59,279 nt of DNA. It comes from Desulfovibrio sp. (GTDB lineage Bacteria; Desulfobacterota; Desulfovibrionia; Desulfovibrionales; Desulfovibrionaceae). The DNA is taken from contig JAFQED010000060.1 in assembly GCA_017415765.1 (NCBI GenBank), positions 1 to 59,279 on the forward strand. Reading direction: 5' to 3'. The notes under the pieces are model-generated. The model worked only from the letters and a program-made list of their open reading frames with translations, was not told where the DNA came from and ran no database searches. Below are positions 4,112 through 59,279 of this stretch, one piece after another (the first letter of the stretch is position 1; every line of letters begins with the position of its first letter). The position numbers and the translations under genes are program-made.

Positions 4112-4206
4112 ACCCTATCCTGCCAGCCTGTAACTGGCCCTGTTTGCCAGAATATTATTTTGATTATAGATGACTGTTGCCAAGACAATGTTCCTAGTGC
4201 ATTTTT

Positions 4207-4345
4207 TGATTGAAACACTCTGCGTTTCAATCGTCACGCTGCCTACGCTTCGCGGGAAAAGCGCGGTTTTCCCGCTTGCTTACGGCGCGGGCGTCCGCTC
4301 TCGCGTCCGCCAGAGCGACTGCCATTTTCAATGGCATTTCGCTCT
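4207..4345 (-). repeat. 139-bp multi-hairpin dispersed element, copy A
   Basis: This is the reverse complement of 59141-59279 with one difference in 139 positions. Read on the minus strand it begins AGAGCGA at 4345, directly at the stop codon of the upstream membrane-protein gene: the TAG uses the first two bases of the element. It contains a nested hairpin (AGAGCGA/TCGCTCT enclosing GCCATT/AATGGC), a GC-rich middle part, a 9-bp stem GCGGGAAAA/TTTTCCCGC and a terminal stem GATTGAAAC/GTTTCAATC. The single difference turns a pair in the terminal stem into G-U in the minus-strand RNA. No reading frame is evident. Confidence 0.9.
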
Positions 4346-4841
4346 AAAAAAGCTGTCCCTTAGCCAGCCGGTGCAAAAGCAACAGCACATCCTGACCCAG
4401 AAAGAGCCAGAGAGCCGCCAGCAGCAGTGCCAGAAAACAATACTCCCCCAGGCTGCCTGTGCTGCACAGTTTGAAGGAAAACCGCCCCTTGCGGGAAAAG
4501 GGATGCCACGGCACACCCTGCGGCGTCAGCATATCCAGCAGGACATGGCTTGCCGCCCCAAAGGCCAAGCCGCTGAGTGCCGCCTTGATCGGAGGGGACA
4601 CAGGCAGGGCCAGGACAGCCAGAAATATGACCAGCCACCAACCCAGCCAATGACTTGTCCCACGGTGGATACGGTTGAAGACCCGTTGCCGCCCACGGGC
4701 CGTAGGGGCAAGGCCCGCCACACGCTGATCCAGAACGTCCGGTAGAATAGCCCCGAAACAGGCCGCAGCTATCCCTGCCGGTGGCAAATGCAGGGCCAGT
4801 CCCAGCCCCACGGCTGCCGCCTGATGGGTCATCCACTTCAT
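4344..4841 (-). CDS. YdjM/DUF457-type membrane protein (putative metal-dependent hydrolase)
   Basis: 165 aa with about four hydrophobic segments. Conserved points of the family are visible: MTHQAAAVG at the start, GAILPDVLDQR, then R-I-H-R-G-T-S-H-W, and AASHVLLDMLTPQGVPWHPF. The His and Asp residues are the presumed metal ligands. Family members are inner-membrane proteins of unclear function (E. coli YdjM is SOS-induced). The start lies 3 bp after the livF stop, so it is probably the last gene of the liv operon. Its stop codon overlaps the first bases of repeat copy A. Confidence 0.75.
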   Translation of the reverse strand: MKWMTHQAAAVGLGLALHLPPAGIAAACFGAILPDVLDQRVAGLAPTARGRQRVFNRIHRGTSHWLGWWLVIFLAVLALPVSPPIKAALSGLAFGAASHVLLDMLTPQGVPWHPFSRKGRFSFKLCSTGSLGEYCFLALLLAALWLFLGQDVLLLLHRLAKGQLF

Positions 4842-5567: not shown

Positions 5568-6378
5568 CTTGCACCGCCATGTCTTCTCCCAGATAGGCAC
5601 GGATAACCACCGGATTGGCACGGATGGCATCAGGCCCGCCCTCTGCTATCAACGCGCCGTATTCCATGACCCAGATATACTGGCAAACGCCCATGACTAC
5701 CTTCATGTCATGCTCTATGAGCAGGATCGTCAGGTCAAACTCATCGCGGATATGCCCGATGAAGTGCATCAGCTCAAGGCTTTCCTGCGGGTTCATGCCA
5801 GCGGCAGGTTCATCCAGCAGCAGCAGGCGCGGCTCTGTAGCCAGAGCCCGCGCGATTTCAAGGCGGCGTTGCGCCCCGTAGGGCAAACTGCCGGCCTTTT
5901 CGTCCAGATGTGCCCCAAGGCCCACGCGCTCGGCCAGCCGTCGGCTTTTTTCCACAATGGCGTCTTCCTCGCGCCAATAGGCGGGCAGTCCCAGCGGGGC
6001 CATCCACCACGGGCAATGACGGCGCACATGGCAGCCCACCATGATGTTTTCCTGCACGGTCATGGCCTGGGAAAGCCGAATGTTCTGAAAAGTGCGGGCC
6101 ATACCCAGACGGCAAATTTCACTGGGCTTGCGCCCCTTGATACTTTGACCGTCAAAAGTAACATCCCCTTCCTGTGGCGTATAAAAGCCGCTCAAGACGT
6201 TGAAGGCCGTAGTTTTGCCCGCGCCGTTAGGGCCGATGATACCCGCAATGGCCCCCCTGGGCACGGCAAGGCTCAGTTCGCTCACAGCAGTAACACCGCC
6301 AAAGCGCATGGTAACGTCACGGGCAAGCAAGAGAGCTTGCGACGGGTCAGGCTGTGTGGGCAAAGGAATCTTACTCAT
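5560..6378 (-). CDS. livG: branched-chain amino acid ABC transporter ATP-binding protein LivG
   Basis: 272 aa. Walker A GPNGAGKTT lies at 49-57. The LivG-type signature is LPYGAQRRLEIARAL, with the usual Y-G-x-Q variant, and Walker B is LLLLDEPAAGMNPQE. The characteristic LivG C-terminus follows (LLIEHDMKVVMGVCQYIWVMEYGALIAEG). It pairs with LivF to power the importer. The ATG overlaps the livM stop in an ATGA arrangement. Confidence 0.94.
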   Translation of the reverse strand: MSKIPLPTQPDPSQALLLARDVTMRFGGVTAVSELSLAVPRGAIAGIIGPNGAGKTTAFNVLSGFYTPQEGDVTFDGQSIKGRKPSEICRLGMARTFQNIRLSQAMTVQENIMVGCHVRRHCPWWMAPLGLPAYWREEDAIVEKSRRLAERVGLGAHLDEKAGSLPYGAQRRLEIARALATEPRLLLLDEPAAGMNPQESLELMHFIGHIRDEFDLTILLIEHDMKVVMGVCQYIWVMEYGALIAEGGPDAIRANPVVIRAYLGEDMAVQDA

Positions 6379-31181: not shown

Positions 31182-31263
31182 GGAAGGAGTTTAGTAGGCC
31201 ACTGCCGGATTGTCCATACTCCGGTTGAGCAGTACCAGGGCAATACGGCCCTATAACATTTTT

Positions 31264-31300
31264 TGATTGAAACACTCCGTGTTCAATCAGAAGATGCTCT
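31264..31300 (-). repeat. internally deleted relative of the 139-bp element
   Basis: It begins TGATTGAAACACTC and, with the preceding CATTTTT, shares 21 bases in a row with copy A. It keeps the terminal hairpin (TTGAAACAC with an imperfect partner), then jumps to the GCTCT end of the element, lacking about 100 bp of the centre. It lies between the ZIP transporter and the GGDEF/TPR gene, in the same orientation relative to the upstream gene as the full copies. Confidence 0.65.
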
Positions 31301-31388
31301 AAGGAACGGCTCAATATCAAGGCTGCCGACGTGCATCAGCAGCCCTGAAAGATTGCCGTATTCAAAGGCTGTTCCCATACAGGCTGTG

Positions 31389-41042: not shown

Positions 41043-41100
41043 GCCTTGATTTCATTGGCGCGCTCGAAGAGATTCGAACTCCTGACCTACAGGTTCGTAG
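41043..41100. repeat. attachment-site repeat (tRNA-Arg 3' fragment), left end of island
   Basis: 58 bp identical to 46661-46718. Bases 41056-41100 are, on the minus strand, the anticodon loop to CCA end of tRNA-Arg(ACG) and the rest is its downstream flank. Beyond the anticodon loop the sequence diverges (GGGCAATAATC). This is what integration at a tRNA gene leaves. The gap 40938-41262 holds this site and otherwise no convincing gene; a 36-codon frame from 40940 is not supported. Confidence 0.9.
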
Positions 41101-44667: not shown

Positions 44668-46443
44668 TCAAATCTTTACGCCTTGGTTCAGCAAATCGAA
44701 GCCTTCTTTAATTATCTTTGCCATCATCCCCCTGCGCTTCTGTAAAAACTCATCATATTCCATCTGCTCCCAGCCCTTGGGCAGTGCATGCTGCCGAAGG
44801 TGTTCTTCCAACTTATCCTGCTGTGGAAAGGCTTTTACCAGTAGCGGAAAATACATTGATGGGGGTTTACTCGATATTTTGAGGTTCTTTGCCCAAGGTA
44901 TCATGGCAAGGTTTGCAAGCTGGTTGGTCTTTCTGACGCCAGTAATCCCCAGTTTCTGCAAATAGGCTTTGGGAAAGAGATGGTGCTTTTCCAGCGCATT
45001 GTGCTTGCCATTCATTACAGCATCGAACTGTTCCCCCAGCTTATTGGTGGAGAACAGTGCCCATGCGTCCAGCAGAACCAAAGCTGCCCAATAGGCAAAC
45101 TGCGCCGGGCTGCTGGCTGTAGATGAGGCCAGGTTGTTGATGAGCGTGATATCCCAAAAGTCGTCAGTGAGGGTATCCCGAATGGCCTTGTCCATATAGG
45201 ACAAAAAATCCTTGCCTGTCTTTAACTCTTCCAAATCTGCCATATCTGCTTCTATCTGGCCTTCGGCATTGGATGTATATCGCCCCGACAGGGATACCAT
45301 AAAAAACCATCGAGCCATGTGCGCCTGCAAATCATCATGTGACAGCCCATAATCCTGTCTGCCGATGAGATAAAAAACATAGGTGTATATGAGAGATGCC
45401 TTGGAAGAAATCATATCTCGGCTGCGGAAGCCTGCTGCGTGGACACACGCAAGAAAATTTTTCCAGTGGTGCAGATCTAGCACCACTGCCTGTGCACGCT
45501 CCAACTTTGCAAACTGTTCATCCTTCATTTCTGGGGAAACTTTCTTTGTCTTCAAATCTTTGCCTGTCAAAATCTGGTAGGCATACTTTAGTCGTCCTCT
45601 ACGGAAAGCCAGACAAATTGACACCCGCAACAAATCATCTGGTTCAGGGGATATAAAATAGTTATATGGCGAGTTTCCGTGTTTGGATGGTGTTCTTGCA
45701 TCTTCGCAGAATTTTTCGATGGCTTCTCTGCCTTCATTCCAATAGACGGACATCAGTGTAAATATGAAGTCAGACTGCTTGAGCTTTTGTCCTTGACTAT
45801 TCACACGCACGAAAATTTTTGCGACCACTTCTTCGTCTGTGGCCGAGTTTATTTCAAGCACAGAAAAGTCATAGTGTAGGAGATGCAGCAGCCTCATCAT
45901 ATTATTTGATATGGAGCCTATTTTTTCTTCATCCAGTTTTCCTTGAACCTCACGCTGTGTATTGAGGAAGCCCTCTATAAGAAGCCAGCTATTTGCCTGT
46001 TTTTTGAAAATTTGTGAGATGCTTGGAATCCAAGTTGGATCGCGGTCTTGGATAGCTCCGCGCACCTCAAACTTTCCCGTGTGCGGCTGAAAAGCTATTT
46101 CAATACTACGCGGCCGCTTATTTTTATCCAGTACCTGCTCCCCAGTGATGACGGCATACAGTGATGTCAGACGCTGTTGTCCATCTATAATCAGGTGCGC
46201 CGGAGACATTTGCTTTTGTGTTGTACCTATTACCTTTGCCGCTGTTGATGCCTCCCAGAACAACAACATACCAACCGGATAGCCCTGAAACATCGAATCA
46301 AACAAATCCCGAACCTGTGCATCCGTCCAGACAAACGGACGCTGAATATCCGGCAGACCTATTTGTCCCTGTTTGATGTCAGCAATAAGCCCAGAAACAT
46401 CCCAAGAGAATTTTTTGAAAATACACGCAGTGCTGTCGTCCAT
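44668..46443 (-). CDS. DUF262 and HNH domain protein, probable phage-defence nuclease
   Basis: 591 aa from the ATG at 46443, with AGAGGTTGCT upstream. The DUF262 (ParB/Srx-like) domain opens with LPDIQRPFVWTDAQVRDLFD and holds the D87-G-Q-Q-R-L-T motif. A long helical middle follows. Near the end LEKHHLFPKAYLQ (His 487-488) with NQLANLAMIPWAKN is an HNH-type nuclease motif. DUF262 plus HNH is the architecture of GmrSD-type modification-dependent restriction and of related phage-defence proteins, where DUF262 binds nucleotide or modified DNA. GC is lower than in the core genes. It lies next to the tRNA end of the island. Confidence 0.82.
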   Translation of the reverse strand: MDDSTACIFKKFSWDVSGLIADIKQGQIGLPDIQRPFVWTDAQVRDLFDSMFQGYPVGMLLFWEASTAAKVIGTTQKQMSPAHLIIDGQQRLTSLYAVITGEQVLDKNKRPRSIEIAFQPHTGKFEVRGAIQDRDPTWIPSISQIFKKQANSWLLIEGFLNTQREVQGKLDEEKIGSISNNMMRLLHLLHYDFSVLEINSATDEEVVAKIFVRVNSQGQKLKQSDFIFTLMSVYWNEGREAIEKFCEDARTPSKHGNSPYNYFISPEPDDLLRVSICLAFRRGRLKYAYQILTGKDLKTKKVSPEMKDEQFAKLERAQAVVLDLHHWKNFLACVHAAGFRSRDMISSKASLIYTYVFYLIGRQDYGLSHDDLQAHMARWFFMVSLSGRYTSNAEGQIEADMADLEELKTGKDFLSYMDKAIRDTLTDDFWDITLINNLASSTASSPAQFAYWAALVLLDAWALFSTNKLGEQFDAVMNGKHNALEKHHLFPKAYLQKLGITGVRKTNQLANLAMIPWAKNLKISSKPPSMYFPLLVKAFPQQDKLEEHLRQHALPKGWEQMEYDEFLQKRRGMMAKIIKEGFDLLNQGVKI

Positions 46444-46633
46444 AGCAACCTCTGATATTTTATGGCATAGACTACAAAACAGGTTGATAAAGCGCAATAG
46501 CGACCGAACTTTTTGCACTCCTCCTACCCACCCATACGGGCATAAATTTTCGCAGCACAAATCGAGGGGAAGTACAGTCTTTGAGCTGGGGTTCAAGGAT
46601 AACAGTCGTATCTATAGGGTAGCAACACAGGAA

Positions 46634-46665
46634 AAGGCGTTACCCCAGAATTGAGGTAACGCCTT
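46634..46665 (-). terminator. terminator downstream of tRNA-Arg
   Basis: AAGGCGTTACC and its complement GGTAACGCCTT enclose a 10-nt loop and are followed on the minus strand by TTCC. The right attachment repeat begins inside this hairpin (46661), so its far half belongs to the island. Confidence 0.7.
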
Positions 46666-46718
46666 GATTTCATTGGCGCGCTCGAAGAGATTCGAACTCC
46701 TGACCTACAGGTTCGTAG
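46661..46718. repeat. attachment-site repeat, right end of island (within tRNA-Arg)
   Basis: Identical over 58 bp to 41043-41100. It spans from the anticodon loop of the intact tRNA-Arg to 13 bp beyond its CCA end. Confidence 0.9.
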
Positions 46719-46750
46719 CCTGTTGCTCTATCCAGCTGAGCTACGAGCGC
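46674..46750 (-). tRNA. tRNA-Arg(ACG)
   Basis: 77 nt with encoded CCA. The acceptor GCGCTCG/CGAGCGC is perfect. The anticodon stem ACAGG/CCTGT carries loop CTACGAA with anticodon ACG, and the T loop is GTTCGAATC. It is the integration site of the island, whose insertion kept the tRNA intact. Confidence 0.97.
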
Positions 46751-58605: not shown

Positions 58606-59142
58606 ATGATTCTGCTTGAAAAAGATGAAATAGCCCGCATCCTTGAGCGTCTTGCCTCACAGGTTGTGGAGCGTTATGGCCTGTGCGGCAATCTGGTTCT
58701 CGTGGGCATCCAGCGGCGTGGTGCATACCTTGCCCAGAGGCTCGCCGCACAGCTCAAGGAACGCTGCGGCAAACAAATAGCCCTGGGCACGCTGGACATC
58801 AATCTGTACCGTGATGACTGGACGAGCCTTGCGGGAAAACCGCATATCGGCCAGTCCTCTATCCCTTGCGCTGTGGACAAGCGTGTGGTCATCCTTATAG
58901 ACGATGTGCTTTTCAGCGGTCGGACTGTACGCGCCGCCCTGGAAGCCCTGCTGGACTATGGCCGTCCCAGTGCAGTTGAACTGATGGTGCTTATTGACCG
59001 CGGGCATCGGGAACTGCCTATCCAGCCTGACTATGTGGGCCGCACGATCCAGACCCGGCATCATGAACATATAGATGTGCTGTTAGAGGAGCTGGACGGT
59101 ATGGACGCTGTCAGACTGGACAGCAATACCGAAACATCCTAG
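58606..59142 (+). CDS. pyrR: bifunctional PyrR: pyrimidine operon regulator / uracil phosphoribosyltransferase
   Basis: 178 aa from the ATG at 58606, with CACAGGAGG upstream. The PRPP loop is VILIDDVLFSGRTVRAALEA. VLVGIQRRGAYLAQRL, GTLDINLYRDDW and VLIDRGHRELPIQPDYVGR complete the PyrR pattern. In Gram-positives it binds UMP and pyr mRNA to promote attenuation; in this lineage an RNA target is not shown. No pyr genes are adjacent. Its TAG stop uses the first two bases of repeat copy B. Confidence 0.92.
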   Translation: MILLEKDEIARILERLASQVVERYGLCGNLVLVGIQRRGAYLAQRLAAQLKERCGKQIALGTLDINLYRDDWTSLAGKPHIGQSSIPCAVDKRVVILIDDVLFSGRTVRAALEALLDYGRPSAVELMVLIDRGHRELPIQPDYVGRTIQTRHHEHIDVLLEELDGMDAVRLDSNTETS

Positions 59143-59279
59143 AGCGAAATGCCATTGAAAATGGCAGTCGCTCTGGCGGACGCGAGAGCGGACGCCCGCG
59201 CCGTAAGCAAGCGGGAAAACCGCGCTTTTCCCGCGAAGCGTAGGCAGCGTGACGATTGAAACACAGAGTGTTTCAATCA
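59141..59279 (+). repeat. 139-bp multi-hairpin dispersed element, copy B
   Basis: Inverted copy of 4207-4345 with one difference. Hairpins: AGAGCGA/TCGCTCT enclosing GCCATT/AATGGC (59141-59174), GCGGGAAAA/TTTTCCCGC (59211-59234), and GATTGAAACAC/GTGTTTCAATC, a perfect 11-bp stem (59254-59278). It starts at the pyrR stop codon. The window ends at the last base, so it may extend further: copy A and the relic share CATTTTT beyond this edge. Confidence 0.9.

Follow-up and report, generated by a model that had tools for sequence, protein, structure and literature searches.

A fold-conserved repeat of gut Desulfovibrionaceae with the features of a non-autonomous, MITE-like mobile element of the TA class

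We describe a short, hairpin-rich repeat of a Desulfovibrio genome that we interpret, with a probability of roughly 85%, as a non-autonomous, MITE-like mobile element of the TA class. It came to attention as an inverted pair in the window, the whole stretch of 59,279 nucleotides analysed here, which is one entire contig (C57:1-59279) of a draft genome of 2.10 Mb in 74 contigs. Comparison of the window with itself, together with reading of the sequence, confirmed the preliminary description of two near-identical inverted copies with one mismatch: 139 of 140 bases are identical between 4207-4346 and 59140-59279. The sole difference lies in the terminal hairpin H3, where copy A has G-U and copy B has A-U, so that pairing is kept, as had been claimed. 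The limits first given for copy A (4207..4345) proved too short, because copy B, which had set the left limit, is cut by the contig end; the full unit of copy A spans 4195-4346. The features of the window that concern the repeat are the following.

4195..4346, minus strand: copy A, complete with the TA at either end, 152 bp (sequence reading)
4344..4346, minus strand: 5' TA plus G, the stop codon of a YdjM-like gene (4841..4344)
4312..4345, minus strand: H1, 5' terminal hairpin (AGAGCGA..TCGCTCT), from the fold and from solo units
4290..4311, minus strand: H2 hairpin; other copies hold an optional 19-nt hairpin in its loop (site 1)
4237..4289, minus strand: P3/P4, a closing helix with a bulged A, internal loops, a 2-bp helix and a long hairpin
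4252-4275, minus strand: P4, the long hairpin, with a CCGCGC loop
4208..4232, minus strand: H3, 3' terminal hairpin, carrying the only difference between A and B
4195..4196, minus strand: 3' TA, the duplicated target's second copy; the next base on this strand is G, giving TAG
59140..59279, plus strand: copy B, truncated where the contig stops, about 12 bp short of its 3' TA
59140-59142, plus strand: TAG of copy B, the stop codon of a pyrR-like gene
31252..31301, no strand assigned: degenerate solo H3-type palindrome, a related unit without the core

Read on its minus strand, copy A consists of TA-GAGC, H1, H2, P3/P4, H3, an A-rich stretch and GCACTA, the last of which is GCTCTA in many other copies. 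Each copy had been said to contain several hairpins, and the predicted folds agree, lying far below those of dinucleotide shuffles on both strands: -73.0 kcal/mol for the minus strand of copy A (z -7.7), -64.8 kcal/mol for its plus strand (z -6.3) and -73.4 kcal/mol for copy B (z -8.1), with none of 200 shuffles as stable in any of the three cases. A 36-codon ORF begins in H1 of copy B, which is free of the modules described below. We take it as spurious and discard a coding element, since the ORF has no Pfam match and its frame is shifted by the 19-nt modules.

As in MITEs, the repeat is short, non-coding and dispersed in many copies. A DNA search of the source genome, with the best 40 of 118 candidates scored, returned at least 44 matches; the core GCGTAGGCAGCG occurs there exactly 56 times, and three further sites with one mismatch that bear an element end bring the list to 59 copies. 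A simple duplication of two copies, the case that the preliminary description had named as its refutation, is thereby ruled out. The copies have terminal inverted repeats (TAGAGC..GC(T/A/C)(C/A/T)TA), both TA ends being present in 44 of the 59, while an end is missing in 10 and the ends are altered in 5. Ends also occur apart from the core, at 93 H1-like and 65 H3-like sites with up to three mismatches (none for the reversed patterns), and many of the 40 such places inspected are solo palindromes with TAGAGC ends. Eight contigs (C10, C41, C42, C50, C52, C57, C61 and C71) start or stop inside the repeat, which therefore breaks the assembly. The longest version, of about 375 nt at C29:1528-1905 (L184), has extra modules on the H1 side, one of them resembling the H1-loop module of copies from another genome, G017 (L040, L048).

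Mobility is indicated by two insertions whose empty counterparts could be read. At C9:45484-45666 (L066), an element is nested inside a sister element of which L070 is the uninserted form; by reading, the empty CGGC-TA-AAGC has become CGGC-TA-GAGC...GCCT-TA-AAGC, one TA thus giving two. The other case is a locus of G022 (L050) and its counterpart in an uncultured Desulfovibrio MAG (L366), with flanks 95.2% and 93.8% identical. Here the filled site reads CC-AT-GAGC..GCTC-AT-GTGG and the empty one CC-AC-GTGG, so that the duplicated pair is AT, provided that one substitution (AT/AC) occurred in the empty allele. Target site duplication of the TA type, as expected of a MITE, was thus found in two cases only, TA in the nested insertion and AT in the filled/empty pair. 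The latter comes from a screen of the fetched loci with 85 candidate gaps, of which 59 were listed; nine comparisons were inspected, one being this element. Apart from L264 and L257, the other inspected insertions were not recognisable as this element. These two (L264 889-1045 in G017; L257 1313-1459 in G002) have a similar hairpin layout in other letters, and their orthologous sites are empty; they are possibly sister families. Many copies, inverted ends, a 2-bp duplication, a filled/empty pair and a nested insertion all speak for the recently spread non-autonomous element that the preliminary description had proposed.

We hypothesize that a TA-type transposase, possibly IS630/Tc1-like, would act in trans on the element ends. 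A PF13358 (DDE_3) search of the source genome for an autonomous partner gave three fragments only, two above the family cut-off and one below it, none of them with TAGAGC..GCTCTA-type ends by eye. Of 22 end-bounded ORF segments of the fetched loci, 10 were compared with Pfam, and none of these 10 gave a transposase. Ends shared with an autonomous IS are known for only some MITE families. At C32:10401-10775 (L219) an element copy directly adjoins a sequence that resembles an IS630-type transposase domain weakly, with a score under the cut-off.

The element shows a marked target preference. A purine follows the 3' TA in all 44 usable copies of the 59 in the source genome; among relatives, where 40 of 80 cores have a recognisable 3' TA, 34 likewise have A or G there and the other 6 have T. 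After intergenic TA in the window, a purine stands in 38.7% (212/548). Read in the direction of the element, most targets are therefore TAA or TAG, two of the three stop codons. As the element has G directly after its TA, insertion at either of them would restore TAG, and such insertions at gene ends would do little harm and persist. A neighbouring ORF (at least 80 codons, called mechanically) ends in frame on the TAG of the element in 17 cases among the 59 copies, 12 at the 5' end and 5 at the 3' end. This proportion, 17/59, is high against the 9.3% expected for random intergenic TA; given the TAR rule (TA plus purine), the 12/59 co-directional cases are a slight excess over the expected 11.7% (p 0.04). 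The stop-codon habit thus stems mostly from target choice and survival. Copy A lies at the end of a YdjM-like gene (PF04307), and eight of 11 orthologs from relatives stop at the same residue, one of the remaining three being one residue longer and two differing. This element is absent from the approximately 117 nt behind the YdjM stop in all 11 relatives read. In G175 (L242), a short TAGGGC..GCTCTA palindrome sits at the same YdjM stop that carries copy A. This palindrome suggests independent insertions into one stop codon. The C-termini of pyrR vary by some residues, so that the case of copy B can only be called consistent with insertion into a stop codon.

Related cores in other species have very different letters and the same hairpin layout. 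In 10 real cores, aligned without a model, 92.1% of the cells pair. Both partners have changed in 27 cells, where shuffles give 9.8 (0 of 500), and such two-sided changes affect 11 of 24 pairs against 6.1 (1 of 500); further pair types show no excess (16 against 15.0). A preceding alignment of 11 rows, one of them a hybrid, agreed with this. The compensatory-change analysis with a covariance model, which had been suggested at the outset, found 17 of 24 pairs with two-sided changes in 80 cores hand-chosen from 72 loci of relatives. In this alignment, which was fitted to the model and leans towards structure, 88.7% of the cells pair and 221 show two-sided changes, compared with 77.5 for shuffles (0 of 500) and 10-21 for slid controls; the cells are not independent, because many rows stem from few genomes. 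At three of the pairs, 43-56% of the rows lack pairing, and G001, G017 and G207, with a differing P3/P4 layout, were left out of the set. The pairs of the P3 helix and of the isolated 2-bp helix have 36 and 35, and 25 and 10, two-sided cells. We propose that the interior fold would matter for propagation, as single-stranded DNA or as RNA.

How this fold is maintained admits other readings. Conversion through cruciforms or template switching would keep the arms of palindromes alike without selection, making the fold a by-product, which is compatible with mobility. H1, H3 and P4 are indeed near-perfect palindromes, the G-U bias described below is not consistent, and covariation in palindromic DNA could come partly from conversion between arms. 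We nevertheless consider this reading unlikely, though worth keeping in mind, because covariation extends to the isolated 2-bp helix and to the bulged P3 helix, whose arms lie about 40 nt from each other, and arm conversion explains this poorly. Clearly less probable to us is that the host selects the repeat as a regulatory RNA in 3' UTRs, where it would stabilise the mRNA, be a processing site or act as terminator, and that its multiplication is incidental; this corresponds to the selected 3'-UTR RNA structure of the preliminary description. Both window copies do lie directly behind genes and in the same direction, and the 12 co-directional stop codons fit such a role, but their excess is slight under the TAR rule. 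When selection acts on the RNA of one strand, G-U should outnumber A-C in stems. This holds in the source genome, with 25 to 8 among 46 aligned copies, about 43 of them distinct (p 0.005), or 17 to 7 when distinct events are counted by hand (p 0.06). In relatives, by contrast, the ratio is 29 to 54 (p 0.008 in the opposite direction; 21 pairs with less than 20% unpaired), or 13 to 13 in distinct types. The strand tests being contradictory, a general RNA role receives no support from them, and what stands of the RNA proposal is the strong covariation of paired positions. A patchy distribution among genomes also argues against it, as do the tracts after the 3' hairpin, A-rich instead of U-rich. 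The A-rich tract 3' of the terminal hairpin rules out, by eye, a Rho-independent terminator. Rfam reported two tRNAs only in the window, without a match to the repeat, and one sub-threshold match in 10 loci (MIR8008, with 30.2 bits where 66 are required).

Palindromes of the REP/REPIN kind, moved by a RAYT (Y1) transposase, would share with our repeat the palindromic units, the many copies and a GTAG inside GCGTAGGCAGCG. However, this GTAG has an internal position, relatives have GACG, GACA or GAAG in its place, and a 2-bp duplication with inverted ends, by which REPINs are not known to be marked, would be atypical; we therefore regard this origin as very improbable. AGAGC ends are known from the alphaproteobacterial palindromes RIME and Bru-RS, to which a link is conceivable.

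The non-autonomous mobile element preferred here has in addition a modular interior. In the source genome, hairpins of the form CTTGTCCNGC-loop-GCNGGG (18-19 nt) are exactly present or absent at three sites, the H2 loop (site 1), the 5' strand of P4 (site 2) and the position after P4 (site 3), and a fourth site in H3 has or lacks a 48-nt module. By fuzzy scoring, 26 of the 59 copies are module-free and sites 1-3 occur in all eight combinations, the C15 copy being scored without its visible site-1 hairpin and the C65 copy as module-free, yet cut by the contig end before the module sites. The 46 aligned copies include four pairs that share an identical backbone but differ in their modules, for instance none against all four. 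By reading, no microhomology is left when the module of site 2 is taken out. The exact 19-nt pattern, which misses the 18-nt form, has 55 matches in the source genome, every one within an element (50 in listed copies and 5 in relics or divergent versions); elsewhere in the genus, exact matches number 0-2 per genome, as many as for a reversed control, with G019, where one exact match lies inside an element, as an exception. It is tempting to propose that the 18-19-nt hairpins are themselves units that enter or leave the folded element with precision, a speculation to which we give low odds. If true, a mobile structured element would harbour a hitherto-unknown hairpin-directed process of insertion or excision, or the processing of an RNA intermediate, and identical backbones with no, two or all modules would be explained.

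The search of related Desulfovibrionaceae that had been called for found the repeat, with covariance model R1, in 25 of 199 genomes of the family and 9 of 44 genera; in 39 of 297 genomes from the order, a sample that includes the family itself, there were matches, all 39 being the source genome itself or of the same genus or family. DNA search matched 11 of 41 genomes, the source genome included, and none of 16 from other families. Counts per genome are lower bounds, with 16-24 candidates scored in each. The P4 pattern gave at least 117 stretches in named genomes, and the 80 listed are all Desulfovibrio, Mailhella or Desulfovibrionaceae by title. As far as sampled, the repeat family is confined to one bacterial family, Desulfovibrionaceae by the named matches, and its carriers are gut Desulfovibrionaceae. 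Copy A had no blastn match in phage and plasmid records. An IMG/VR contig with tape-measure and baseplate genes (L425) has two copies, at 1650-1680 and 6050-6080, the first of which, by reading, supplies the TAG of a short upstream ORF; this viral contig is a possible vehicle for the element.

The window contains another repeat, a perfect 58-bp direct one at 41043-41100 and 46661-46718, 5.6 kb apart, whose second copy overlaps a tRNA gene (46677-46750, minus strand). Between the two lie an ADP-ribosylglycohydrolase-like ORF and a 642-codon ORF (44668-46596) matching phage families of unknown function. The segment 41043-46718 may be a putative tRNA-targeted integrated element, in which no integrase was identified.

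A MITE-like sequence that turns over while its fold persists across genera offers natural data for asking what use an internal fold is to a non-autonomous element, and the module differences between otherwise identical copies make hairpin gain and loss directly testable. In practice, the repeat breaks the assemblies of carrier genomes and creates spurious ORFs.

Among the open-licence literature matches listed, there was no report of such a Desulfovibrio repeat, and the main text of PMC2267715 does not mention Desulfovibrio. Judged by published descriptions, several known families are comparable. ERIC/RU-1 of enterobacteria shares a length of about 100-200 bp, inverted ends, terminal TA, TA duplication and stable stem-loops (PMC2229807, PMC2759123), but is set apart by its host family, whereas our repeat has side-by-side hairpins that covary between genera and modules at fixed sites. 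Correia/NEMIS of Neisseria, as described in PMC2229807, likewise has terminal TA, inverted ends and short and long forms; there one internal 50-bp sequence makes the difference, whereas here several separate modules are optional, three of them of one motif and in all eight combinations. RUP of pneumococcus is a MITE-like element with a TA target, for which a mover from the IS630 family has been proposed (PMC2229807); by description, its ends match IS630-Spn1, while the PF13358 search of our source genome yielded no matching IS. BOX, also of pneumococcus, is likewise a composite repeat in which the set of internal modules varies (PMC3049150), but from its description BOX varies in the number of tandem boxB units, whereas the element described here varies by single hairpins at dispersed sites.
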